From: Candidatus Bathyarchaeota archaeon
GTDB taxonomy: Archaea; Thermoproteota; Bathyarchaeia; Bathyarchaeales; Bathycorpusculaceae
Direction of reading: 5' to 3'
DNA: 38,322 nt
Assembly: GCA_017883615.1 (NCBI GenBank)
Contig: JADGNF010000002.1
Span: 1 to 38,322 of the forward strand
Shown here: positions 1 to 38,021 of the stretch, piece by piece
Layout: each line of letters starts with the position of its first letter
How positions within the stretch are numbered: position 1 is the first letter of the stretch
Made by a program: the position numbers and the translations under genes
The notes under the pieces: model-generated
Told to the model about the DNA's origin: nothing
Seen by the model: the letters and a program-made list of their open reading frames with translations, nothing else
Databases searched by the model: none

Positions 1-2549
1 AAGAATGCAAAAAACAGCAATGGAGGACGCACAAACAGGAAGTATTTGTCGCCTAGGATCGTATAGGGTATGGCTATTGCAACCGCAATAATGCTTAAGC
101 TGCTTATTGTGAGGAGTTTTCCGGGCTCGCTCTTCCAAAAGGGCGACTTACGTGTTCTAATGGCGAAGATAACTAAGGTTTGCGTTGCCAGAGACTCGAT
201 GAACCAGGCGGTTTGAAAAAGAGGCTGTTGCGGTACACTTGGGAACATTGGGAAGAAGATGAATAGCATTATGAAGAATGTCAAGAAGTCAAAAACGGAG
301 CTAACGGGACCTAGGTATATCATGAAGCTTCGTATGTAGCCGATGTCCCATCGCTTCGGCTTCTCAACATACTCGGGGTCAACGTTATCCGTCGTGATGG
401 TGGATTGGGACAGATCGTAGAGCAGGTTGTTAAGAAGAATCTGGATGGGCAGCATTGGAAGGAAATTGTAGCCCAGAAACGGCAACAGAAGCGATGCTCC
501 AGCTACACTGAACATGTTGCCAAAGTTGCTACTGACTCCCATCATAATGTATTTCATTGTGTTCCCGAAGGTTTTCCTGCCTTCCAGCACACCTTCAGCC
601 AACACGGTTAAGTCATTTTTCAAAAGAATGATGTCAGCAGATTCCTTTGCCACGTCCACCGCGTTGTCCACTGAGACGCCGACGTCGGAGGTTTTCAGGG
701 AAGGTGCATCGTTTATGCCGTCACCTATGAAACCAACCACGTGGCCGTTACCTTTTAGTAAGTTGATGATTCGGTCCTTCTGAACAGGTGTAACCCGGGC
801 AAAGAGATTTGCTTCCTCGACTACGCGGGCTAATGCGTCGTCGTGCATCTGGCTGATTTCGCTTCCTAATGCGACACCTTTTATTTCGAAGCCTAGTTGT
901 TCGCAGGTTTTTCTGGCGACGAGCTCGTTGTCGCCTGTCAGAATTTTGAGTTCAATTCCCGCTTGACCTAGTAACTTAAGTGATTCTTTTGCCGTTTCTT
1001 TTGGCGGGTCAAGAAAAGCTACGAACCCAAGGAAAACCATGTCGCTCTCGTCGTTTACGGAGTAAACAGCTTTTTCTTCGCGCAGTTTCCGGTAGGAAAC
1101 GCCTAAAACGCGGAAGCCTTCGGAACTCAAATCCAAGTATTTCTGTTCAGATTTCTTGCGTAACTCTTCGGTGAGGTCCACTGGTAAGCCGCCGATTTCA
1201 CAGAACGAGCAGACTTTGAGAATTTCTTCTGGGGCACCTTTAGCTATGAAGAAACGTTGCCGATCTTTTTCGACGACTACGCTGACGCGTCGACGTACAA
1301 AGTCGAAGGGGACTTCGTCGATTTTCTGGAATCCCGCTACATCCTGAGCTTCGTGACCTAGTATGGCTTCGTCGAGGGGGCTTTTTAGCCCAGTTTGGAA
1401 GTAACTGTTCAAGTATGAGTAGAGTAGAACTTTGTTGTCGTCTTTGCCTTCAGCGTCAACATGAAGCACAAGCGTGATTTTATTTTCCGTAAGTGTTCCT
1501 GTTTTGTCTGTGCAAAGTACGTTCATGCTGCCGAAGTTCTCTATTGAAGAAAGTCGCTTAACGATGACGCCTTTCTTAGACATAGAGATGGCTCCTCTGG
1601 AAAGATTCACCGTGATAATCATAGGCAGAAGCTCAGGAGTCAAACCTACAGCCAACGCCACGGAGAACAGCAAGGCTTGCAGGATGCCGTTGGTGTCGGG
1701 GTGAAGCAACGCGTTAACCAGAAAGACAAACAGCACAAGCAATATTGTGACTTGCATTATGAGGAAACCGAAGCCTTTGATGCCGCGCTCGAACTCGGTT
1801 TCCGGAACTGCTTCTACAAGTTTCTTTGCGATTTTGCCGTATTCGGTTAAGCCTCCTGTTCGGACGACTAGCGCGGTGGCTGTTCCGCTGACGACAGAGG
1901 TTCCCATGAAAAGGTAGTTGTTCCATTCGGAGATGGATGCATCTTTGACTTTTATGGGCGCATTTGTCTTCTCGACAGGGAATGATTCGCCTGTTAGAGA
2001 AGATTGGTTGATGAAAAGGTCTTTCGCGGAGATCACTCGAGCATCTGCAGGCGTTATGTCTCCGGCGGAAAGGTAAATGGTATCGCCAGGGACAATGTCG
2101 TGAAGTTTGATTTCTTTTTTGTTGCCGTCTCTGAGGACCGTGGCTGTTGTTGTTACTTTTTCTTTGAGGGTTTCGGCGGCTTTTTCGGCTTTTGATTCTT
2201 GATAGAAATCTAGAATTACGCTGAGGAAAACTATGCTGTAAATAATTATTGTGTTCGCCCATTCACCAAAGATGCCTGAGATTAAGCCCGCAACCATCAA
2301 GATGATAACTAAGGGGCTTTTGAAGTTCATCAGAAATTCTATGAGGGCACTGTGCTTTTTTCCTCGTGCAAGTTCGTTTGGACCGTAAACTTCCAAGCGG
2401 TTTTGTGCTTCTTCAAAAGAAAGCCCTGAAGGTGAAGCCTCGACCCGCTGGTAAAGATCTTCGATGGGAAGACCAAGGAGTTCTTCTGCGCTTAGCATAA
2501 GCTGCGGTTTTGGGACGGTTTCGCTTTGGGCGTTGTTGCCGGTTGCCAT
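1..2549 (-). CDS. mgtA: Magnesium-translocating P-type ATPase (MgtA-like), 3' end missing
   Basis: Membrane cation pump of the P-type ATPase superfamily, most like the type IIIB Mg2+ importers. The frame is open from ATG at 2549 to the window edge, giving about 849 residues, so only the extreme C-terminus is missing (family about 850-900). Visible motifs: an N-terminal cation-ATPase segment, the actuator TGES at 186-189, the membrane motif GLTPELLPMI typical of MgtA/MgtB, the phosphorylation site DKTGTLTENK with catalytic Asp348, TGDN, and the hinge GDGINDA at 609-615, followed by several hydrophobic C-terminal helices. A strong Shine-Dalgarno (AAGGAG) lies 8 bases before the ATG. It is divergent from ndk. 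A Ca2+ or H+ pump is less likely because of the LTPELLPMI motif. Substrate assignment is by family resemblance only. Confidence 0.9.
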   Translation of the reverse strand, partial: MATGNNAQSETVPKPQLMLSAEELLGLPIEDLYQRVEASPSGLSFEEAQNRLEVYGPNELARGKKHSALIEFLMNFKSPLVIILMVAGLISGIFGEWANTIIIYSIVFLSVILDFYQESKAEKAAETLKEKVTTTATVLRDGNKKEIKLHDIVPGDTIYLSAGDITPADARVISAKDLFINQSSLTGESFPVEKTNAPIKVKDASISEWNNYLFMGTSVVSGTATALVVRTGGLTEYGKIAKKLVEAVPETEFERGIKGFGFLIMQVTILLVLFVFLVNALLHPDTNGILQALLFSVALAVGLTPELLPMIITVNLSRGAISMSKKGVIVKRLSSIENFGSMNVLCTDKTGTLTENKITLVLHVDAEGKDDNKVLLYSYLNSYFQTGLKSPLDEAILGHEAQDVAGFQKIDEVPFDFVRRRVSVVVEKDRQRFFIAKGAPEEILKVCSFCEIGGLPVDLTEELRKKSEQKYLDLSSEGFRVLGVSYRKLREEKAVYSVNDESDMVFLGFVAFLDPPKETAKESLKLLGQAGIELKILTGDNELVARKTCEQLGFEIKGVALGSEISQMHDDALARVVEEANLFARVTPVQKDRIINLLKGNGHVVGFIGDGINDAPSLKTSDVGVSVDNAVDVAKESADIILLKNDLTVLAEGVLEGRKTFGNTMKYIMMGVSSNFGNMFSVAGASLLLPFLGYNFLPMLPIQILLNNLLYDLSQSTITTDNVDPEYVEKPKRWDIGYIRSFMIYLGPVSSVFDFLTFFIMLFIFFPMFPSVPQQPLFQTAWFIESLATQTLVIFAIRTRKSPFWKSEPGKLLTISSLSIIAVAIAIPYTILGDKYFLFVRPPLLFFAF

Positions 2550-2707
2550 GAAATTTCTCCTTTGGACGATTTGCTTTGTGCGCAGAACTATCAAGCATAC
2601 GGATGCATCATTCTTAAAGGGGTTTCTAGAACTTCTACAGCATCAAACTGGAAAAGCTTTCAAAAACCGTCTTTTTTACAACATCTCTTTGGAGAAAGAC
2701 AGTTTAG

Positions 2708-2716
2708 TTTATAAGA
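2708..2716 (+). promoter_or_regulatory. TATA box of ndk
   Basis: TTTATAAGA lies about 30-40 bases before the two possible ndk start codons. A start point about 25 bases downstream gives an almost leaderless mRNA, consistent with the lack of a clear Shine-Dalgarno sequence. Confidence 0.5.
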
Positions 2717-2743
2717 GTAGCAGATCCAGAAAAATTCAACGGG

Positions 2744-3205
2744 ATGAGAAAAATGGGTTTAGAAAAAACGTTCGTAATGCTCAAGCCGTCCACAGTTGCT
2801 AGAGCTATGATTGGAAAAGTCATCTGCCGAATAGAAGACAAAGGACTCAAAATCGTCGCCATGAAATTAACCTGCATAGCAAAGGAAGAAGCTGCAGAGC
2901 TATACGCGGTTCATAAAGGGAAACCGTTCTACGACGCACTGGTTCAGTTCATAACTTCAGGTCCAATTGTTGCAATGGTTATCGAAGGAGACGAAGCGGT
3001 GAAGGTCATGCGGAAATTCATCGGTGCCACCAACTCCAAAGAAGCAGAAGCAGGCACGATAAGGGGCGATTTTGCGTTGAGTAATCAGAAAAACGTTATT
3101 CACGCGTCGGATTCTGTAGAGAACGCGAAAATGGAGATGGAAATCTTCTTTGCACCAGAAGAAATTCTCAGCTACAAACGTGCTGACGATAACTGGATTT
3201 ATTGA
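2744..3205 (+). CDS. ndk: Nucleoside diphosphate kinase
   Basis: Transfers the gamma phosphate from ATP to nucleoside diphosphates through a phosphohistidine, balancing NTP and dNTP pools in the cytoplasm. The 153-residue protein matches the family length. It starts with the ETFVMLKP-like strand (Lys14 as the ATP-contacting lysine) and has the active-site signature NVIHASDS with catalytic His120. The start is either ATG 2744 or ATG 2753 (MGLEKTFVML); the second matches most homologues better, and the TATA box at 2708 allows either. The next feature downstream is a tRNA on the opposite strand, so transcription is convergent there. Confidence 0.95.
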   Translation: MRKMGLEKTFVMLKPSTVARAMIGKVICRIEDKGLKIVAMKLTCIAKEEAAELYAVHKGKPFYDALVQFITSGPIVAMVIEGDEAVKVMRKFIGATNSKEAEAGTIRGDFALSNQKNVIHASDSVENAKMEMEIFFAPEEILSYKRADDNWIY

Positions 3206-3249
3206 CCAACACCTTGACTTTTGATAAAGAAACGCAACAAATCGTATTA

Positions 3250-3327
3250 TGGTGCTCTGGCCGGGATTCGAACCCGGGTCCGTGACTCGAGAGGCCACTA
3301 TACTTGACCGGACTATACTACCAGAGC
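3250..3327 (-). tRNA. tRNA-Glu (anticodon CTC), CCA encoded
   Basis: A full cloverleaf folds on the minus strand. The acceptor stem is GCTCTGG/CCAGAGC; the D-arm is GTAT/GTAT, partly G-U paired, with AGTCCGGTCAA in the loop. The anticodon stem GTGGC/GTCAC encloses loop CTCTCGA, giving anticodon CTC. The variable loop has 4 bases, and the T-arm is CCGGG-TTCGAAT-CCCGG. The discriminator is A, followed by a genomically encoded CCA (3250-3252). No intron is present. Confidence 0.95.
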
Positions 3328-3508
3328 CAGCTTTGTAGATGTGAACATACTCAAATCGGTTTGGATTAATTTACTTTCCCCTACCAAACGCGCTGCTAAA
3401 CCTTCCCAGACAATCTCAAACAACAAACAGAGTGGTTGATAAGAAATAAAAAAACAAAATAGTCGAGCTGTTTTTGTGAGTTAAAACAAAAAGGAAATTG
3501 GGGGAAGT

Positions 3509-5158
3509 TTACTCTTCGCCGCCCATTCCGCCCATTCCGCCAGGACCACCTGGACCGCCCTTGGGTTTGCTGCTGGAAATGACGTCGTCGATGCGTAGGA
3601 TCATGCTTGCGGATTCGGCTGCGGATTTTATAGCTTGTTCTTTAACGACGATTGGTTCGATGACGCCGTTGTCGATGCTGTTTTGGATTTTACCTGTGAA
3701 AACGTTGATGCCAATGTATTGTCCGTCGGCTTTATCGTGTGCTTGTCTCAGAGAGACTAGGATGTCTATAGGGTCGAGTCCTGCGTTTTCTGCGAGCGCA
3801 CGTGGAATGACTTCCATAGCGTCTGCAAAGGCTTCTATGGCGAGTTGTTCTCTGCCGCCGACTTTGTTGGCGTATTTGCGTAGTTCTTTGGCTACTTCGA
3901 TTTCGACTGCTCCGCCGCCTGCGACGATTTTATTGTTTTCAATTACGTCTGAGACCACTGAGAGTGCGTCTGTCATGGCGCGTTCAGCTTCGTCGACCAT
4001 GCGTTCGAGTCCTGCGCGGATGAGGATTGCGACGCTGTGGGGATCTTTGCATTTTTCGACAAATATCATTTTGTCGTCGCCGATTTTGCGTTCTTCCACG
4101 TGGCCTGCAACGCCTAGGTCAGCTGCTTTGAGGTCGTCTAAGTTGCTTGTCACTTTTGCACCTGTTGCGCGCGCGAGTTTTTGCATGTCGGATTCTTTTA
4201 CGCGGCGTGCTGCCATGATGCCTTCTTTGGAGAGGTAGTGCTGGACCATGTCGTCTATGCCTTTTTGACAGAAAACGATGTCTGCGCCTGACTTTTTGAT
4301 TTGGGTTGCCATTTTCTGGAGCATGCTATCTTCTTGGTCTAGGAACGCTTTCATTTGGGTGGGGTCTTTGATGCGGATTTCAGCGCTCATTTCGGTTTTT
4401 TCGATTTCGAGGGCTGAGTCTAGAAGTGCGATTTTTGCGTTTTCTTTTTTGCGGGGCATGCCTGGGTGGACGATTTCTTTGTCGACGATGATGCCTTGGA
4501 CGAGTTCTGTTTCTAGAAGGCTTTTGCCTGCTTTTTTGATCATTTGGACGTTGTCTATGTCGGCGATTGTTTTGTCTCCGCGTTGTTCAGCGATTTGAGT
4601 GACTGCATCGATGGCTATTTCGGCTAGGTGCTCTTTGGCGCTGCCGACTGCTTTGCTGCCCATAGATGTTAGGGCGACTTTGAGCATGGCTTTTTTGTCT
4701 TTAACGTCGATTGGAACTGCGGTTTTTTGGACAACTTCGATTGCTTTTTGGGCTGCTTTGCGGTAGCCACTTACGAGGATAGTTGGGTGAATGTTTTGGT
4801 CGAGGAGTTCTTCAGCTTTTTTGAGGAGTTCGCTTGCTAGAACTACAGCTGTGGTTGTGCCATCGCCGACCATGTCATCTTGAGTTTTGGCGATTTCAAC
4901 CATCATTTTTGCTGCTGGGTGTTCAACTTCTATTTCGTTGAGGATGGTTGCGCCGTCGTTGGTTATTGTGATGTCGCCGAGGTTGTCGATTAGCATTTTG
5001 TCCATGCCGCGTGGACCGAGCGTGGTTTTTAGAACTTCGCCGACTACGCGTGCTGCCATAATGTTATTTCGTTGGGCTTCTTTGCCTCTGCTTCTTGTTG
5101 TTCCTTCTTTTAGAACCAGGACAGGTTGTCCCGAGTTTGTTGTTGTTAAGTATGCCAT
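3509..5158 (-). CDS. thsA: Thermosome subunit (group II chaperonin)
   Basis: ATP-driven double-ring cytosolic chaperonin that folds proteins in a closed cavity. The 549-residue protein has the family length. Visible are the N-terminal [12 protein letters not shown], the ATP-site NDGATIL at 67-73, GDGTTT at 98-103 with the expected ATPase aspartate, and a Gly/Met-rich tail ([11 protein letters not shown]) ending in EE. The ATG at 5158 gives the canonical short N-terminus. It is monocistronic, with its own TATA element at 5190. A single subunit is in this window; partners elsewhere cannot be excluded. Heat-shock control is usual for the family but no operator is evident. Confidence 0.97.
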
Positions 5159-5635: not shown

Positions 5636-8275
5636 TCAAACGGGGAGTTCAATGACGAATTTAGTTCCTTTTCCAACCTCACTTTCAAACGTTACAGTCC
5701 CACCCAGCCCCTCTGTAAACCGCTTAACCACAGCCAACCCAAAACCCTGCCCCTTTGATTTCGTTGTCACCAGCGGCGTGAAAAGCTTGCTACGCACATC
5801 TTCCGGAATGCCTTCACCTGTATCCTGTACGGTAATGGTTGTTTTCCCGTCTTTGGAGGATGCCGCAATGGTCAATTTGCCACCCTTGGGCATAGCTTGA
5901 ATTGCATTGGTCGCGAGATTAGTCAGTATCCTTTGGATATATGATTGGTCAGCTTTGAGTTTGGGAAAATCTTTTTTGATGGAGTGTTTCACAGTTACGT
6001 TTCCGGGGATGTTAAGGTGGGCTAAGACTTGGTGAACGGTCGCTTCAAGGTCCACCTCTTCAAGTTTTGGCGTTAGCGGTCTGGCGAAGTCTTGCAGGTC
6101 AGCAACGATTTTGTTGATGTAATAGATGTTCTTCTCAATCTCGGTCAGGCTTTCTTGGACGTTTGTTTTCTCTTCACTGTCGGGCAGCGCGGTCAAATCT
6201 GTTCTCGCCAAGTAAACATCGCTGGTGATAGCCTGCAGTGGATTGCGGATGTCGTGTCCAACCATACCTGCGGTGGCGCCGATTGCGGCTAAGCGTTCAG
6301 AATCCTTCAGCTGCTTTTCTAGGCGTCTATGCTCAGAAATATCGTTGAACAGTATGCCTACTTTGCGGATTTTTTCTTCGCCGACTGGAAATGCATAGAC
6401 ATCGTAGTAACGGTTCAGCTCTTTTGCTTCGTTCTGGAAACGAACAGGCTGTGCTGATAAGGCCACATTACCGTAGGTTTCAAACCAGTAAGCTTCGTGG
6501 TTAGGGGCAAAACTGCTCATCAACTTGCCTTTCGCCTCATGCATTCCAGTTTGCCGCTCAAATGCGCCGTTGACTTCCAAAAAACGGTAATCAACAGGTT
6601 TGCCGTTGCTATCGAAGACCATTTCAATGAGGCAGAAGCCCTCGTCAATCGAGTCAAACAGCAGCCGGTACCGTTCTTCACTAACTTTCAAGGATAGCGT
6701 GCGTTTTTCAACTAAGTCTTCCAAATGGCGGCTGTATTCTTCAAGTTTAGCCTGCATCTGTTTACGCAAAGTGACGTCAATGAAGGTGTTGATAAGATGT
6801 TTTTGACCGTTAAGAGTGATTGTTTCCGACGAGGTGGGCACTGTTACGATTTTGCCCGATTTGGTTCTCACATTAGTTTCAAAGTCGCGCAGTTCGCCAT
6901 TTTCACCGACAATTTGGATTCCTTGGTTGCGTTTGCTGGAATCTAGGAGGTTCAACTCAGCTGAATTGTGACCCACGAATTCGTCACGGCTGTACTCAAG
7001 TAAATTCAGGACACTTTGATTTGCGTCAATATAACTAAAGTCGCTAAGTCTGGTGATAATTTGGGGAACTGGGCTTTTATGGAAGGCTTTGGAGAACCGC
7101 TCTTCGCTTTCCTTCACCGCCTCTTCTGCTTTCTTGCGTTCGGTAATATCTCGGAATATAAGCACTACTCCCGTGGTTTTGTCGTCTTTATCCTTTATGG
7201 GCGCACCACTGTCATCAATTGGCAGATCTGTTCCGTCCTTCCGGATCAAAATCGTGTGGTTAGCTAAACCTACAATCATGCCTTTCTCTAGCACTTTGCT
7301 GACCGGGTCTTCAACTCCCAGGCGGGTTTGCTCGTTAACAATGTTGAAAATTTCTTTCACTGGTTTTAGAGAAGCCTCAGTCAATGTCCAACCAGTCAGA
7401 CCCTCCGCAATGCCATTCATGAATACGATTTTTCCAAATACGTCGGTTGCGATAACAGCGTCGCCGATGCTTGCCAAAGTGGTTTCCCACCGTTGCTCGC
7501 TTTCCTTCAGTAAGGTTTGCGCTTTTTCCAGTTCTGTTTTGGAGGCAGTTACGTTTTTCAAGTTATTTGTCATTTGGTTGAAAGCGGTTGAGAGTACGGT
7601 TATTTCGTTTTTACCTTTGATTTCTATTGTGTAATCGAGGTTTCCGGAGCCGATTGTGTTTATTCCGTTTTGGAGTTTGCCAACAGATCTTAATGTGCCT
7701 CGGAAAACCATGAAGTAAATTGTGGCTAACAGTGCCCCGAATACAGCCACGAGTGAGACAATTAGTATAAGGTTTGTTTCATTTGTTTGGCGAGCTTGGT
7801 CATCAATTGAATTTGACAGCTGGGAGGAGTCAAAGGCAAGTGTCTGACCTTGAACTGCCATGCTGCTCCATCTGATTTGAAATGCGGGGTCAACCCTGAC
7901 GCTGACGTTTCGGGGAGCGCTTTGCAAATAGGTAACTACGTCGGAAAAAGTGGTGTTGAGTCTTTGCATGTCTCCTCCAACGGTGGTTACAAGGGTTTGC
8001 TGCGTTGGGGTGTTAGGTTTCAGAGTCGACAAATCTGTGGAGAGGGAAGAAAACGAGGATTGCCATCGGGAAAGCTGCAGGTTTTCTTGGTAGAGGAAGT
8101 AATCGATAGAGATGCTGTTTAGGCTGCTTGCCCCCTGCTCGATGTTGCCAGCTGTTTGTTCTTGCGTGTTAAGCTGACTCACCTGCTGCTCCGTGAGTGC
8201 AACTGAGGCAGCAATGAAAACCAGTATTATGCTGAAGACGACAACGCAGATCACAAACTGTGTTTTTATCTTCAT
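5636..8275 (-). CDS. Membrane sensor histidine kinase with HAMP and three PAS domains
   Basis: An 879-residue two-component sensor kinase. Order: membrane helix 1 (about 7-27); an extracytoplasmic helical region of about 140 residues; membrane helix 2 (about 168-191); HAMP (about 192-245); PAS 1 (258-380, ending IFRDITERKKAEE); PAS 2 (390-505); PAS 3 (532-655); HisKA with phospho-accepting His674 in GHDIRNP; HATPase with N-box Asn790, DTGEGIP at 818 and GQGFGLAVV at 842. All catalytic boxes are intact, so it should autophosphorylate. ATG 8275 follows GAGGG, which overlaps the stop of the upstream solute-binding protein gene, so the two are translationally linked. No response regulator or receiver domain is in the window; the output partner is unknown. 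Confidence 0.93.
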   Translation of the reverse strand: MKIKTQFVICVVVFSIILVFIAASVALTEQQVSQLNTQEQTAGNIEQGASSLNSISIDYFLYQENLQLSRWQSSFSSLSTDLSTLKPNTPTQQTLVTTVGGDMQRLNTTFSDVVTYLQSAPRNVSVRVDPAFQIRWSSMAVQGQTLAFDSSQLSNSIDDQARQTNETNLILIVSLVAVFGALLATIYFMVFRGTLRSVGKLQNGINTIGSGNLDYTIEIKGKNEITVLSTAFNQMTNNLKNVTASKTELEKAQTLLKESEQRWETTLASIGDAVIATDVFGKIVFMNGIAEGLTGWTLTEASLKPVKEIFNIVNEQTRLGVEDPVSKVLEKGMIVGLANHTILIRKDGTDLPIDDSGAPIKDKDDKTTGVVLIFRDITERKKAEEAVKESEERFSKAFHKSPVPQIITRLSDFSYIDANQSVLNLLEYSRDEFVGHNSAELNLLDSSKRNQGIQIVGENGELRDFETNVRTKSGKIVTVPTSSETITLNGQKHLINTFIDVTLRKQMQAKLEEYSRHLEDLVEKRTLSLKVSEERYRLLFDSIDEGFCLIEMVFDSNGKPVDYRFLEVNGAFERQTGMHEAKGKLMSSFAPNHEAYWFETYGNVALSAQPVRFQNEAKELNRYYDVYAFPVGEEKIRKVGILFNDISEHRRLEKQLKDSERLAAIGATAGMVGHDIRNPLQAITSDVYLARTDLTALPDSEEKTNVQESLTEIEKNIYYINKIVADLQDFARPLTPKLEEVDLEATVHQVLAHLNIPGNVTVKHSIKKDFPKLKADQSYIQRILTNLATNAIQAMPKGGKLTIAASSKDGKTTITVQDTGEGIPEDVRSKLFTPLVTTKSKGQGFGLAVVKRFTEGLGGTVTFESEVGKGTKFVIELPV

Positions 8276-8285
8276 TTTGCTTCCC

Positions 8286-9335
8286 TCAGTGAATTATGTT
8301 AACGGATTCGGGTTTTACAGACATTAAGCCCTGTAAGTATATATAATTGAGGAAATCTGGGACCGCGGTTTGGTTTGTGAGGTTGTTGCTGATAATCCAG
8401 CGTGCCTCATTTTCTAGGGTAGCAACAAGCGACTGGTCCAGTGAGAGGGAAAATGTGTGGTTAGGCCATATTTCCGCCATATAAGCATCGGTAGCATTGA
8501 TCCTGTTTCGGATAATAGATTCGGCTTGAGCAGGATGGATGTCAACGTAAGCCTCTGCTTGAGCTAACGACTTCAAAAATCGCGTGACCAATTCCGGATG
8601 CTGCGTGATCCAATCGTTCCTACATGAAACAACCATATCTAACAGTCGACCACTCTGCACAGACCAAATAACAATATCATCGGGAAGTTGGGCCTTAATT
8701 TGCGGAATACTTGACTCGGAAACCACCACAGCGTCTACGGTTCCGTTCACTATTGCACTAACATAGGCCGTTGTTGGAACATTCACTAGGGTTATGTTTT
8801 GTGTGTTTACGTTGTTTAGTTCCAGAAAGGTGGCGAGATAAAATTGGGGTGCAATTTGGAGGGAGAGCCCAATCCGTTTCCCCTCAAGATCAGATATGTT
8901 TTCAATACCACGATCCATTCGTCCAACAATAGAAACTGACTCCGACTTATCGACCGTTGCAATAACGTGCAGGTTTCCCTGTTTCAAAACATTAGTTGCA
9001 ACAAATGCATACTCTGACGAAATAGCCAAATTCACTTGATTACTTAAGGCCGCGTTGAGTGCGATTGTTGCTGAAGTATAATCTGCTATTGTCAAATTGA
9101 TTCCATTTTTGGCAAAATAATTTTGGTCTTGAGCAACATAAACAAGCCCCGCATAAGGTTCAGAACTGCCTAAAAAGTTTCCAAAAGAAACATTTTCTGT
9201 TTTACCCAAGTAAGAGTTTTGAGAACTCAAGTAAACGAACGAACTCAAAATCAACGATGCAGCCACAATGATAACAATTGCCGTAACGGCTATTTTCTTT
9301 CCGATTTTGATTTGCAGTTTGTTCTCTCTCCTCAA
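8286..9335 (-). CDS. Membrane-anchored NMT1/SsuA-type solute-binding protein 2
   Basis: A 349-residue type II periplasmic-binding fold protein of the NitT/TauT/SsuA (NMT1/THI5-like) group. Residues 14-35 form an uncleaved-looking membrane anchor with no lipobox cysteine. The fold signature follows: YAGLVYVAQDQNYFAKNGI at the first strand, ALSNQVNLAISSEY, then DLEGKRIGLS and NGTVDAVVV. The start is TTG 9335, overlapping the TGA of the upstream paralogue (TTGA). The C-terminus SVKPESVNIIH is almost identical to that paralogue's (SIKPESVNIIH), so the two arose by tandem duplication. It lies 10 bases from the histidine kinase. No permease or ABC ATPase is nearby, so a role as a receptor for the kinase is inferred. 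The ligand is unknown. Confidence 0.88.
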   Translation of the reverse strand: MRRENKLQIKIGKKIAVTAIVIIVAASLILSSFVYLSSQNSYLGKTENVSFGNFLGSSEPYAGLVYVAQDQNYFAKNGINLTIADYTSATIALNAALSNQVNLAISSEYAFVATNVLKQGNLHVIATVDKSESVSIVGRMDRGIENISDLEGKRIGLSLQIAPQFYLATFLELNNVNTQNITLVNVPTTAYVSAIVNGTVDAVVVSESSIPQIKAQLPDDIVIWSVQSGRLLDMVVSCRNDWITQHPELVTRFLKSLAQAEAYVDIHPAQAESIIRNRINATDAYMAEIWPNHTFSLSLDQSLVATLENEARWIISNNLTNQTAVPDFLNYIYLQGLMSVKPESVNIIH

Positions 9336-10357
9336 TGGATTATATTAACAGATTCGGGTTTTATCGACAGTAAGCCATTCAAATATAGGTAATTTAGGAA
9401 GTTTGGGATTGCGGTTTGATTGGTGAGTTTAACAATTATCATCCAACGAGCTTCGTTTTCCAGGGCAAGAACCAGAGACTGATCCAGAGAAAGCGCAAAT
9501 TGGTTTTGTTTCCATACTGTTTCCATGTAGGCGGCTGTGAAGTTCATCTGCTGCTTCACGATTGCTTTAGCCTGGGTTGGATTGCTGTTGATGAAGTCTT
9601 CCGCTTGATACAGCGCCTGCAGGAACTGCTTAACCAGTTGAGGGTTCGCGTTAATCCAGTCGGTTCTGCACGCTAAAACTCCAAAAGACTGCGGGCTACC
9701 CTGCACAGACCACGCCACTGCATTACTGCCCAACGCGCTGACAATCTCGTTAGTGTAAGGCTGCCAATTAGCTACCGCGTCAATGGTCCCATTCATGAGC
9801 GCATTTTCCGATTGAGACAACGTCATGTTCACAAAAGATACATCCGTCGTCTTAAGACCACTTAAGCTGAGGAACTGAGCAACATAATACTCCACAATCG
9901 TTCCCCAAGGAAGAGCAATAGTCTTTCCTTTAAGGTCAGAGGCATTTTCAATTCCGTGGTCTCTGCGGTCCACGAGGTATTCGAGTTCAGACTTGTTGAC
10001 GCCAGCAATGGCTTGGATGCTCTGATTTTGGAAGGCTGCATTAACTAACGGGTACTCTGAACCCCCAGCAATCTCCAACTGCCCACTGAGCAACGCATTT
10101 GTTGAAGCAATCCCGGTATCATAATTCCGCACAACCACATTCAACCCATTTTGACGGAAGAAACCTTGACTTTGAGCAACATAAATCAGCCCAGACGTTT
10201 CAAGAGGCAAATTACCATAGGTAACTGATTGGAGGTTCCCCGGAAACCTTTGAGAATTAAGGAAAAAGAAGGAGCTGAACGCTACCGCCAAAACCGCGAC
10301 AACAACAACGAAGAGTAAGACGACTCGTTTAGGCTTTTGCATGTTGAATCGCAGCAT
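9332..10357 (-). CDS. Membrane-anchored NMT1/SsuA-type solute-binding protein 1
   Basis: A 341-residue first gene of the three-gene operon, paralogous to the next gene. An N-terminal anchor (about 12-33) precedes the binding fold: TSGLIYVAQSQGFFRQNGL, LLSGQLEIAGGSEYP, DLKGKTIALPWGTIVEYYVAQF and NGTIDAVANWQPY. The last motif resembles ligand-contacting loops of SsuA/TauA proteins. The ATG at 10357 is used here; ATG at codon 6 is also possible. A TATA box sits just upstream at 10393. Pocket residues differ between the paralogues (PWGTIVEYY here against SLQIAPQFY), so the two may bind different ligands. Function as a transporter component with a distant permease remains possible. Confidence 0.88.
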   Translation of the reverse strand: MLRFNMQKPKRVVLLFVVVVAVLAVAFSSFFFLNSQRFPGNLQSVTYGNLPLETSGLIYVAQSQGFFRQNGLNVVVRNYDTGIASTNALLSGQLEIAGGSEYPLVNAAFQNQSIQAIAGVNKSELEYLVDRRDHGIENASDLKGKTIALPWGTIVEYYVAQFLSLSGLKTTDVSFVNMTLSQSENALMNGTIDAVANWQPYTNEIVSALGSNAVAWSVQGSPQSFGVLACRTDWINANPQLVKQFLQALYQAEDFINSNPTQAKAIVKQQMNFTAAYMETVWKQNQFALSLDQSLVLALENEARWMIIVKLTNQTAIPNFLNYLYLNGLLSIKPESVNIIH

Positions 10358-10392: not shown

Positions 10393-10402
10393 CTTATAAA
10401 GC
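10393..10402 (-). promoter_or_regulatory. TATA box of the solute-binding/kinase operon
   Basis: Minus strand GCTTTATAAGG, about 40 bases before ATG 10357. It overlaps the palindrome GGTAACC (10387-10393) and lies next to ATGCATATGC, so regulation at the promoter is possible. Confidence 0.55.
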
Positions 10403-10498: not shown

Positions 10499-11694
10499 TT
10501 AATCGATAATGTCTTCGGGAAGCTCCGTTTTTCTGAAGAAGTACCAGAACAACGTTATGGACGCGACGTAGAATGCTCCTGACAGAAAGAAAGGAGCCAC
10601 CAAGAGCCCCAGCCCCATCAAGTAGGCACCCACGAAACTGCTTAATGCGTTGGGCAGACTCCACAGCGCCGAGTTAATTCCCGAAGGCGCCCCACGCTCG
10701 TCCTCTACGACGATACCCGTTATCATCGACTGCTTAAGAGGCATGGCCATGTTCATCAGAAAACTCCTAAATGTGTAAGCAAACCCAGCCACAGCGTACC
10801 CCGGCGAGAGGGGAATGGCAAACATGAACACCGTGGAGAAACCCTGTGTAACCGTGATAGCCCTTACCAACCGATCCGTTTGGCAAGCCAAGGCCTACTC
10901 AAAGTAGCAAACCCAGCTATCAAACTCGCCACACCCAAAATCGGGCCGCTAACCGAATCGGAGACTCAATATTGCAGTCCCAGCCATGCAGACATCAACG
11001 GAACCACCATCCCTGCCCCAAAAGCAATCAAGCCACTGGCCAAAACGTACCGCACCAAAGGATCCCGCGACTTGTGCGGCAGTAGATTGCGCCAGGTAAC
11101 CCCATGCCGTTTATTCCTACGAGGTTCGCTAATTTTTAACATGAAAATCGTCGAGGACAAGCTCAGAAGGGCCAAAATCACATAAAGCAAAATGTGGCCT
11201 TCCTTGTTGGTGAACCCTGCGCCTTCAAAAATCATAACCAAAGGAATCATCAAGCTACCCACGCCAAACGCAACGCTCTGCACGAACCCAAACAGGGAAT
11301 ATGCGCCGGTCCGACGATGTTCCTCGACTTTCTCGGCAAGCAAAGCGTTTGCCGATGCTACGAAAGCGCCTTCAGCGATTCCTTCCAGAACAGCTGCCAC
11401 CAGAAGGATCGTTACGTTTGTGGTTAGAGCGAAAACTGCGATTATAAGACTGGCGATTATGTTTCCGATTATATGGAGTCTTTTTCTACCGTACTTGTCA
11501 GCTGCCGCCCCCAATGGAATGCTTGAAGCGAATGTGGAATTGCCCATCAACGGAATAGACAACCCCTGCACCGAAGTCAAAAAGTAGGATAGGTCAGTGT
11601 AGAACATGCCGTACGCGACAAACGGAAGTATCGCTGCGTAAATTAGCAATTTGGCTTCTTTGGGTAATCCCCGGTAACTGCTAAAGGGCACCAA
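10499..11694 (-). pseudogene. MFS transporter, disrupted by an in-frame TGA and a frameshift
   Basis: The N-terminal part (to 10966) and C-terminal part (10891-10499) together make one 12-helix major facilitator of about 400 residues. The first half has the MFS loop signature GAAADKYGRKR and a coherent helix pattern. It stops at TGA 10966-10968 right after WLGLQY. Reading on in the same frame gives a good MFS continuation (VSDSVSGPILGVASLIAG) down to about 10875, where one base appears lost (KRIG|LVRAITVTQ) and the rest continues in another frame to 10499. The start is uncertain; TTG 11694 or GTG 11691 lies just before SSYRGLPKEAKLL. Either it is a recent pseudogene or the assembly has errors here. 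Confidence 0.85.
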
Positions 11695-11838
11695 TTGACA
11701 ATCCGCCAAAACACATCTACAAATTAAATTCGCGCTTTTCGACTTATGCTTCACTGTCTGCAAACCCAAAACCACCCAAACCCAAAAAAAACCTCACCAA
11801 CCACCAACGCTGAACAAAGCCGCTTCTTAGGGAACTAG

Positions 11839-26324: not shown

Positions 26325-26450
26325 GATATAGACAGAGAGTTCGTTGCCAGGAGCTAAAAGTTTGGGAAAAGCAAACTCAACGTTCAACAGCCTCATCGGC
26401 CCATCAACAAACCTTCAATTCCAAAAATCCTTTTGGAGAAGCTGATCAAG

Positions 26451-27773
26451 TTGAGTAACCGAACCTCAAAGGGCAAAACACGCGAAATCGCCGACATCTT
26501 AATCGTGAACGCTGAAGAAATGCTCACAATCGCCGGTAGCAGCCAAAAACCTCGAACCGGCAGACAAATGCGGGAACTGGAAATCATCCGCGATGGAGCT
26601 TTAGCCATCAGGGAAGGCAAAATTGTAGCTGTAGGAAAAACCCAAGAAATCACCAAAGCGTTCCGAGGCAACTACGTTTTGAGCGCCAAGGGAAAAACTG
26701 TTCTGCCGGGATTTGTGGATCCGCACACGCATCTGGTTTTTGCAGGTTCACGCGAAGATGAATTCGAGATGTACGTAGAAGGCGCGTCTTTTATGGATCT
26801 CCTCAACAGCGGCGACGCCATCTTAAAAACGACAAGAGAAACGCGCAGAGCTCGTATCGAAAAGTTAGTAGAAACCGGATTGGAAAGACTCGATGCGATG
26901 CTATCTCATGGCACAACGACCGTGGAAACAAAGAGCGGTTACGGTTTAAACACAGCTGATGAAATCAAAATCTTGGAAGCCACAAAACGCATAAACCAAC
27001 TGCACAGCATTAACGTTGTACCAACTTTTATGGGCGCCCACGCAGTTCCCACCGAGTACAGACAAAACACAGACGAATATGTTGACATAATAACTCAAGA
27101 GACTATTCCTAAAATCGCTAAAGCGGGACTTGCAGAGTTCTGCGATGTTTTCTGCGACCGAGGAGTATTCAACACGGAACAGACAAAACGCATCCTAAAA
27201 GGCAGCCGACAAGCGGGGCTGAAACAAAAAATTCATGCAGACCATCTAAACAGATTGGGAGGCGCAGAAATCGCCGCAGAAATCAGTGCAACCTCCGCAG
27301 ACCACTTGAATTTCTCATCGCCAGAGGGCATCAAAGCCATGGCACAAAAAGGCGTAGTCGGGGTTTTGCTCCCAGCAGCTACCTTTAGCATGATGATGAA
27401 CAAGTACGCCGACGCGAGGCTCATGATTGATTCTGGGGTTGCTGTTGCTTTGGGAACAGATTTCAACGCAGGCAACTGGATATTAAACATGCAGTTGGCG
27501 ATTGCGATGGCTTGCCATTTTATGCGCTTAACCTCCGCCGAAGCCATCACGGCTGCAACAATCAACGCTGCCCACGCTATCTGCCGGGGAAACGAAGTGG
27601 GGAGCTTAGAAGTGGGCAAGCAGGCGGATGTCGCAGTTTTGAATGTACCAAACCACAAGTTTTTGGGTTACAGTTTTAGCGTAAACTTGGTTGAGAAAGT
27701 CATCGCCGATGGCAGGTTAGTTGTTGATAGAGAAAAACAGGACGAACCTGTGTTCCTCAGCAAAAACGAATAA
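26451..27773 (+). CDS. hutI: Imidazolonepropionase-like amidohydrolase
   Basis: Third step of histidine degradation: hydrolyses imidazolonepropionate to formiminoglutamate. About 440 residues. Metal-site motifs of the HutI amidohydrolase subfamily are in order: GFVDPHTHLVFAG, KSGYGL, VPTFMGAHAVP, IHADHLN, and GTDFNAGN at the end. TTG 26451 is chosen because GGAG lies 11 bases upstream; TTG 26433 is an in-frame alternative with no such site. No hutH, hutU or hutG is near, so either the pathway is dispersed or the enzyme has another substrate. Confidence 0.92.
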   Translation: MSNRTSKGKTREIADILIVNAEEMLTIAGSSQKPRTGRQMRELEIIRDGALAIREGKIVAVGKTQEITKAFRGNYVLSAKGKTVLPGFVDPHTHLVFAGSREDEFEMYVEGASFMDLLNSGDAILKTTRETRRARIEKLVETGLERLDAMLSHGTTTVETKSGYGLNTADEIKILEATKRINQLHSINVVPTFMGAHAVPTEYRQNTDEYVDIITQETIPKIAKAGLAEFCDVFCDRGVFNTEQTKRILKGSRQAGLKQKIHADHLNRLGGAEIAAEISATSADHLNFSSPEGIKAMAQKGVVGVLLPAATFSMMMNKYADARLMIDSGVAVALGTDFNAGNWILNMQLAIAMACHFMRLTSAEAITAATINAAHAICRGNEVGSLEVGKQADVAVLNVPNHKFLGYSFSVNLVEKVIADGRLVVDREKQDEPVFLSKNE

Positions 27774-36301: not shown

Positions 36302-36351
36302 TTACTCTTAAATGATGCATCCGCGTGCCTATTTCAGGCAGGCATAAAAGG

Positions 36352-37200
36352 ATGGCACTCATCGAAACCAAAAGCCTAACCTACTCGTACCCTGGCGCGA
36401 CGAAGCCGTCAATCAGCGATGTCTCCATAAAAGTGGAGAAAGGCGAATTCGTCCTCATCACGGGTCCAAGCGGCTGCGGAAAAACAACCCTGTGCCGAAC
36501 ATTCAACGGATTAATCCCACAATTTTATCAAGGCGAGCTCAAAGGCGAAATCACTGTCGCCGGGTTGGACGCCGCCAAGCATCCCACCTACGAAATGGCG
36601 AGGCATGTGGGTCTGGTTTTCCAGAACCCAGAAAACCAGCTATTTGCGTTAAGTGTGGAAAAAGACGTGGCTTTTGGATTGGAGAATCTGGGTTATCCAC
36701 GCGACGAGATGCGCAAACGTGTCGATTGGGCTCTGAACTTAACAGGCATTTCTGACTTACGTGACCGCTCCCCGCATGAAATGTCTGGAGGCCAACAGCA
36801 ACGGGTAGCCATAGCCGCCGTCCTCGCCATGCAACCCGAAATCATAGTTCTCGACGAACCAACCAGCTTCCTCGACCCGCTAAGTGCACAAAAAATATTC
36901 GACGTCATCCACGAGCTCAACAAGAACCTGGGTTTAACCGTTATCCTCGTTGAACATCGTCTGGACCTGACGGCTAAGTACGCAAACCACATCATAATCA
37001 TGGACCAAGGCAAAGTCCGCTTCGACGGCGAAACCCGTAGAATCCTAAGCAACGAAGAAACCCGCCTAATCGGCGTAGGCATCCCCAAGGCAACCCTGCT
37101 CTATGAAATGCTCAATAAAGACGGAGCAAACCTGGGCACTGTAACCCCGCTATCATCTGATGAACTCGCCAAGATGCTTCTGGAGGTAATGAAGCACTAA
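36352..37200 (+). CDS. ecfA1: Energy-coupling factor transporter ATPase EcfA1
   Basis: First ABC ATPase of an ECF vitamin or metal importer. About 282 residues. Walker A GPSGCGKTT, Q-loop VFQNPENQLF (the two motifs typical of ECF ATPases), signature MSGGQQQRVAIA, Walker B IIVLDEP. ATG 36352 is chosen from homologue N-termini (ALIETKSLTYSYPG); GTG 36325 is an in-frame alternative. The stop overlaps ecfA2 by one base. Confidence 0.93.
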   Translation: MALIETKSLTYSYPGATKPSISDVSIKVEKGEFVLITGPSGCGKTTLCRTFNGLIPQFYQGELKGEITVAGLDAAKHPTYEMARHVGLVFQNPENQLFALSVEKDVAFGLENLGYPRDEMRKRVDWALNLTGISDLRDRSPHEMSGGQQQRVAIAAVLAMQPEIIVLDEPTSFLDPLSAQKIFDVIHELNKNLGLTVILVEHRLDLTAKYANHIIIMDQGKVRFDGETRRILSNEETRLIGVGIPKATLLYEMLNKDGANLGTVTPLSSDELAKMLLEVMKH

Positions 37201-38021
37201 TGCTCACAGTCGAAAACATCCATTATGCTTATGCAAGCGGGGTGGAAGCACTCAAAGGCGTCTCCCTAACCGTCAAAGACGGGGAATTCGTGGCGGTTAT
37301 GGGACAAAATGGCGCCGGAAAAACCACGCTTGTCAAGCATTTCAACGGTCTTCTCAAACCCAGCAGCGGCAGAGTCCTAATAGACGACGTAGAAACAACC
37401 AAAACCAGCGTCGCTGCCCTCGCTAAAACCGTGGGTTTCGTTTTCCAGAATCCTGACCATCAGCTCTTCAGCGAAACCGTTGAAGAAGAAATCGCTTTTG
37501 CCCTTAAAAACTTCGGGTACGAACCGGCTGTCATCGAAGATCGCATTACGTGGGCAGTTAACCTGTTAGGGTTGACTCAGTATCGGAAGACGTCGCCGTT
37601 TATGCTTAGCGGTGGAGAACGCAAACGCGTTGCCCTCGCTTCGGTCCTATCTTGGGACCCAAAGGTGTTGGTTTTGGATGAACCCACAATCGGGCAGGAC
37701 CATCAGCAGAAAGAGAACTTGCGCCAATTTATCATGCAGTTACAGACACAGGGAAAGACTATCGTCGTAGTTACACACGATGTGGAGTTTGTAGCAGAAT
37801 GCAACCCGCGTGTGGTTCTCATGCGGGAAGGCAAAATCATAGCGGACGGCGAGGGCAAAAACATCCTCACCGACCCTCAGATGCTGGAACAAAGCTCAAT
37901 AGTGTTACCTCAAGTCGCCCAAGTTTTCACTTACCTGAACCTGCCTGGGCTGCCAAAAAACGTCATCGACCTTTACGAAGCAAAGCGGCTACTGCTTAAA
38001 ATGTTGGAGACGTCGCAATGA
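37200..38021 (+). CDS. ecfA2: Energy-coupling factor transporter ATPase EcfA2
   Basis: Second ABC ATPase of the heterodimer. 273 residues: Walker A GQNGAGKTT, VFQNPDHQLF, signature LSGGERKRVALA, Walker B VLVLDEP, switch His in THDVEF. The ATGA junction with ecfT (38018) indicates translational coupling. Confidence 0.93.
   Translation: MLTVENIHYAYASGVEALKGVSLTVKDGEFVAVMGQNGAGKTTLVKHFNGLLKPSSGRVLIDDVETTKTSVAALAKTVGFVFQNPDHQLFSETVEEEIAFALKNFGYEPAVIEDRITWAVNLLGLTQYRKTSPFMLSGGERKRVALASVLSWDPKVLVLDEPTIGQDHQQKENLRQFIMQLQTQGKTIVVVTHDVEFVAECNPRVVLMREGKIIADGEGKNILTDPQMLEQSSIVLPQVAQVFTYLNLPGLPKNVIDLYEAKRLLLKMLETSQ

Follow-up and report, generated by a model that had tools for sequence, protein, structure and literature searches.

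NMT1-type solute-binding proteins encoded beside a histidine kinase in a Bathyarchaeota genome: a probable ligand-sensing operon

In the genome of a Candidatus Bathyarchaeota archaeon (assembly GCA_017883615.1; 1.73 Mb in 79 contigs, 95% complete), two solute-binding proteins (SBPs) of the NMT1/SsuA type are encoded directly ahead of a sensor histidine kinase, and judging from sequence comparisons they are very likely receptors for this kinase and not parts of a transporter. In the genomes surveyed, the close relatives of these SBPs are mostly linked to kinase genes, have no importer permease next to them and form a clade separate from the SBPs found with transporters; the linked kinases share one type of extracellular domain. 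We think it quite probable that the locus is a dedicated ligand-sensing operon, in which tethered SBPs dock on the four-helix bundle of the kinase and set its activity. The initial annotation had proposed that anchored SBPs serve as receptors for the kinase, and this proposal is now supported: no member of the clade comes with an importer, and the conserved external domain travels with the SBPs and resembles a domain seen in complex with an SBP.

The gene trio and its surroundings

The stretch of DNA analysed here, called the window, covers 38,322 nucleotides of contig JADGNF010000002.1. It contains three genes arranged head to tail on the minus strand in the order SBP1, SBP2, kinase (Table 1), at the positions first annotated. 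The ATG of the kinase lies 10 bases past the stop of SBP2, and its GAGGG ribosome-binding site overlaps the TGA, as had been read earlier. The TTGA overlap that was proposed for SBP1 and SBP2 is uncertain. The TTG at 9335 is a possible start of SBP2 and abuts a GAGGAG, but it is not the sole candidate. A CTG in the same frame, at 9317, lies about 8 bases past the GAGGAG; it is better spaced and an equally good start. From the TATA-like box before SBP1 and the gap of about 480 bases between the kinase and the thermosome gene, we infer that the three genes look like a single transcript.

Table 1. Features of the SBP1-SBP2-kinase locus, in positions of the window
Feature	Position	Strand	Basis
SBP1, NMT1/SsuA-type solute-binding protein	9332..10357	-	ORF, Pfam, structure model
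SBP1 anchor helix (likely), residues 10-35	about 10253-10330	-	SBP1 model
SBP2, paralogous NMT1-type solute-binding protein; start TTG 9335 or CTG 9317	8286..9335	-	
Sensor histidine kinase, 879 aa: four-helix-bundle sensor, HAMP, PAS repeats, HisKA, HATPase_c	5636..8275	-	
Kinase extracellular four-helix-bundle sensor domain, residues 28-166	7778..8194	-	model; no Pfam family over cut-off
Kinase HAMP linker, residues 192-240	7556..7702	-	
Kinase HisKA, residues 670-732; phospho-acceptor His674 in GHDIRNPL	6080..6268	-	
Kinase HATPase_c, residues 776-878; N and G boxes present	5642..5950	-	
TATA-like box TTTATAAG, 36-43 bases 5' of SBP1 ATG; possible operon promoter	10393..10400	-	sequence reading, inferred

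The two SBPs are tandem paralogs, as originally described: both match Pfam NMT1 at an E-value of about 1e-29, both have SsuA/TauA as the closest NCBIfam families, and they are 42-44% identical to each other. A family search of the source genome returned these two NMT1 proteins and no others. The model of SBP1 (pLDDT 92.5) has a long N-terminal helix at residues 10-35, a lipobox-like Cys is missing from both window SBPs, and the SSFxxLNSQ motif right after the helix is kept in the sequence alignment of near relatives. With these features, the helix is likely to be an uncleaved membrane anchor. Of the earlier description of the anchors, the helix itself has stood up, and the uncleaved state is likely only.

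The best structural matches of the SBP1 model are TauA and SsuA (E about 1e-21). The residues of TauA that contact taurine (PMC6906117) are mostly changed, T132 being replaced by I154 and D205 by G226 in SBP1; E106 is retained as E126 in SBP1 only. Taurine or another sulfonate was considered as the ligand and rejected on account of these unconserved contacts, and the ligand is thus left unnamed. The two pocket segments pointed out in the initial annotation, PWGTIVEYY and SLQIAPQFY, do differ between the SBPs; this divergence and the arrays of up to five SBPs found in relatives only suggest that the window SBPs bind two ligands. A special C-terminal docking tail was also considered and set aside. 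SBP residues 281-341 rank among the most conserved stretches and fall outside the local matches to importer proteins, and they are probably the ordinary C-terminal part of the fold.

In the kinase, the H, N and G boxes are all intact. Neither next to the trio nor elsewhere in the window is there a response regulator, as noted before; the three receiver domains or response regulators of the source genome are all elsewhere, one of them near another kinase. Pfam and NCBIfam searches also found no NitT/TauT-type permease or ATPase in the whole window. The earlier annotation was incorrect in denying the window any permease or ABC ATPase at all, since there is an adjacent pair of ECF/CbiO-type ABC ATPases at the window end (36325-37200 and 37200-38021, plus strand) and an MFS permease at about 10499-11775 (minus strand), just upstream of SBP1. 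The permease gene is apparently disrupted: it is split into two pieces by an internal stop and a frameshift, the result of gene decay or of assembly errors. Neither the ECF ATPases nor the MFS permease is of the NitT/TauT type, and the conclusion of a transporter-free locus therefore survives. Elsewhere in the window, at 26433-27773 (plus strand), this archaeal genome carries a gene for the imidazolonepropionase HutI that scores over the NCBIfam cut-off.

Relatives of the binding proteins

Our first survey covered 163 genomes of the order and separated two classes of relatives. The close ones (36-48% identical) are all but one located directly 5' of a kinase with a homologous external domain, while the distant NMT1 relatives (under about 28%) are usually beside importer ATPase or permease-like genes. 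The hosts of the close relatives are Candidatus Bathyarchaeota, Methanoregula, a Methanomicrobiales archaeon and a Chloroflexi bacterium. Profile A1 detected the SBP clade in 25 of 199 Methanoregula-order genomes and in 2 of 298 from a Chloroflexota class. A later search through 394 genomes of one phylum added three new genomes, and in all three the SBP gene overlaps the kinase gene by four bases. When 398 genomes sparsely sampled from the source phylum were searched, the clade matched only the source genome, and the SBP-kinase pair was absent from all six same-genus genomes; the distribution is therefore patchy.

Altogether, 48 clade SBP genes from Bathyarchaeia, Methanomicrobiales and Chloroflexota were compared, some of them close relatives and hence not independent events. 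The next gene on the same strand is a kinase in 34 cases and another SBP in 10; two genes are at a contig end, one is followed by a receiver-domain gene, and one is isolated, the matching kinase of its genome (G056) sitting on another contig. None of the 48 has an importer permease beside it. The refuting case named at the outset, homologous loci with a NitT/TauT permease and ATPase, was thus found beside no clade member, and such genes are usual for the distant NMT1 proteins. The search for the same arrangement in related genomes recovered the SBP-kinase linkage many times, again without an importer permease, and the arrangement is not due to chance because it recurs in so many genomes. Receiver-domain genes adjoin the SBP or the sensor kinase in some of these relatives.

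The largest array has five SBPs per kinase. It is found in the Chloroflexota genome G164 (L142, G164:C134; 11915-17500), where five tandem clade SBPs are directly 5' of one kinase with a four-helix sensor. An apparent SBP-kinase fusion in G047 was rejected as a candidate, being really a broken SBP C-terminus, with a stop and a frame change, beside an assembly gap (L050 7700-8100, G047:C27).

A tree of 42 kinase-linked and 14 transporter-context SBPs is divided between the two contexts by a single change, with support of 92/95. Shuffling the contexts required 12.6 changes on average, and none of 500 shuffles gave as few as the one observed. Inside the kinase-linked clade, sequences of Bathyarchaeia, methanogens and Chloroflexota are interleaved, which suggests lateral transfer of the SBPs between these groups. 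Four of the five SBPs of the G164 array were placed on the tree; they lie apart, on separate branches, which means that the array did not arise simply by recent local multiplication. Nor are the window's SBP1 and SBP2 sisters.

The sensor domain and competing readings

The SBP-linked kinases match one common profile for the extracellular domain. Its model, a confident one, is a four-helix bundle (helices 3-62, 65-84, 90-119 and 130-198; pLDDT 89.8, pTM 0.77). The best Foldseek match of the model is the sensor of the kinase Adeh_2942 (E 1.1e-3); among the next matches is the LytS domain of XylFII-LytS (PDB 5xsj; E 0.021, TM 0.86 over the target, rmsd 2.2). Searching the PDB by sequence with the sensor gave no match below E 0.05. 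The domain thus has a fold of a kind known to bind SBPs, as a match of fold only. Four-helix bundles are common, and the likeness to LytS is best taken as a hint of what the domain could do, not of common descent.

The association of sensor and SBP is tight in the Methanoregula order, where 26 of 28 sensor domains adjoin a clade SBP; of the other two, one is truncated by the end of its contig and the second is an orphan. It is looser in Bathyarchaeia, where an SBP adjoins six of the 17 sensor domains and a broken SBP end at an assembly gap adjoins another. The remaining ten are orphans, and six of their genomes carry no clade SBP at all. These ten orphan kinases, which have the same sensor domain, argue against an obligate pairing. 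The nearest relatives of the window sensor are themselves two orphans, at L195 and L196. At these loci (5778-9585 and 595-4393, respectively), the orphan kinase gene is followed by one for a lone receiver and one for a further kinase. The latter begins with a receiver domain, and its C-terminal half closely resembles that of the window kinase; each set looks like a phosphorelay.

Linked and orphan sensors alike conserve L52, Y59, W71 and L153. Another set of residues, S137, R138, V141 and F/Y75, is kept mainly in SBP-linked sensors and mostly lost in orphans; S137 is present in 31 of 34 linked sensors against two of ten orphans, and the residue at position 75 in 34 of 34 against three of ten. 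On the tree, the comparison yields no more than four independent contrasts, a number too small for statistics; where they differ, nearly all do so in the expected direction, and the four residues make a suggestive candidate for an interface signature. The window sensor keeps S137 and V141, unlike its relatives at L195 and L196, and like them is without Y54 and N57.

Could the SBPs still be receptors for transport, sharing a permease and ATPase encoded elsewhere, with the kinase co-transcribed to regulate uptake? There are BPD_transp_1 permeases at eight places on four other contigs of the source genome, and some bacterial SBPs are known both to transport and to signal (PMC10384115). The clade of the window SBPs is nevertheless separate from the SBPs in transporter context, and no genome surveyed has an importer permease beside a clade member, so we judge this reading improbable. 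We give similarly little credence to the idea that the kinase itself senses a solute or the state of the membrane through its four-helix bundle, the SBPs being modulators only or co-expressed for another purpose. The orphan kinases with intact sensor domains would fit it, as would the residues conserved in linked and orphan sensors alike, and the two-component form of Cua perceives its signal without its SBP too (PMC10384115). On the other hand, the linkage has hardly any exceptions in methanogens or in the Chloroflexota genomes recovered, the SBPs have been multiplied in tandem and kept through apparent lateral transfer, and the signature residues are retained mainly where an SBP is linked.

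The preferred reading, that of a ligand-sensing operon, would work as follows. SBP1 and SBP2, held at the outer face of the cell by the helices at their N-termini, would catch small solutes and would no longer serve a transporter. In one ligand state, they would dock on the extracellular four-helix bundle of the kinase, and the movement upon docking would pass via the transmembrane helices and HAMP to set the autophosphorylation of His674. The phosphate may then go to a response regulator encoded elsewhere. It is also conceivable, although we hold this more ambitious proposal only tentatively and at less than even odds, that the locus represents a laterally mobile, transporter-free receptor module whose sensor domain is of an undescribed family. 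In such a module, one kinase would be shared by several anchored SBPs (two here and five in one Chloroflexota genome), each for its own ligand, as interchangeable input heads.

Known systems and implications

The adjacency of the SBP and kinase genes is conserved across genomes, as it is in the SBP-dependent histidine kinase, or three-component, systems. A cognate response regulator beside such a system is usual, not universal. XylFII is a sugar-type binding protein and not an NMT1 protein, and XylFII-LytS controls xylose uptake genes. Like the trio described here, XylFII-LytS of Clostridium beijerinckii combines a sensing SBP with a histidine kinase that has a four-helix bundle as its external domain; unlike it, the trio has no transporter near and has two SBPs per kinase. 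LytS was crystallised with XylFII, which is reported to contact its helices 3 and 4 (PMC9769921, where the system is cited from Li et al. 2017). In CuaDSR of Ruminiclostridium cellulolyticum, the SBP gene is likewise directly beside the kinase gene, and its SBP is for sensing, distinct from the transport SBP (PMC10384115); that SBP is a lipoprotein for cellobiose, a response regulator is encoded next to the system and an importer operon lies close by, all features absent here. TauA and SsuA of the NitT/TauT importers share both fold and sequence family with SBP1 and SBP2, yet the window SBPs have no partner permease or ATPase and mostly do not keep the taurine contacts. BasB/BasT and CosB/CosT of Halobacterium are also archaeal binding proteins with membrane signalling receptors (PMC3579733). 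Their partner is a chemotaxis transducer, while here it is a histidine kinase, in which Pfam finds HisKA and HATPase_c but no MCP signalling domain.

Kinases activated by SBPs are established in bacteria, where the two genes are neighbours in 10 of the 11 characterised couples (PMC11113362), and a census of archaeal two-component systems does not mention binding-protein inputs (PMC5847659). We found no description of an NMT1-kinase family in the open-access papers searched. What we describe is an archaea-centred variant of the bacterial SBP-kinase three-component system; the system as such is already known, and the NMT1-kinase form is new.

Clade SBPs that carry an importer annotation should be re-read as receptors. 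For most archaeal histidine kinases the signal has yet to be identified, and the NMT1-linked family offers a definable input for a class of kinases in methanogens and Bathyarchaeia: the identity of an SBP ligand would reveal the signal of the linked kinase, and the tandem arrays provide a testbed for signalling from many receptors to one kinase.
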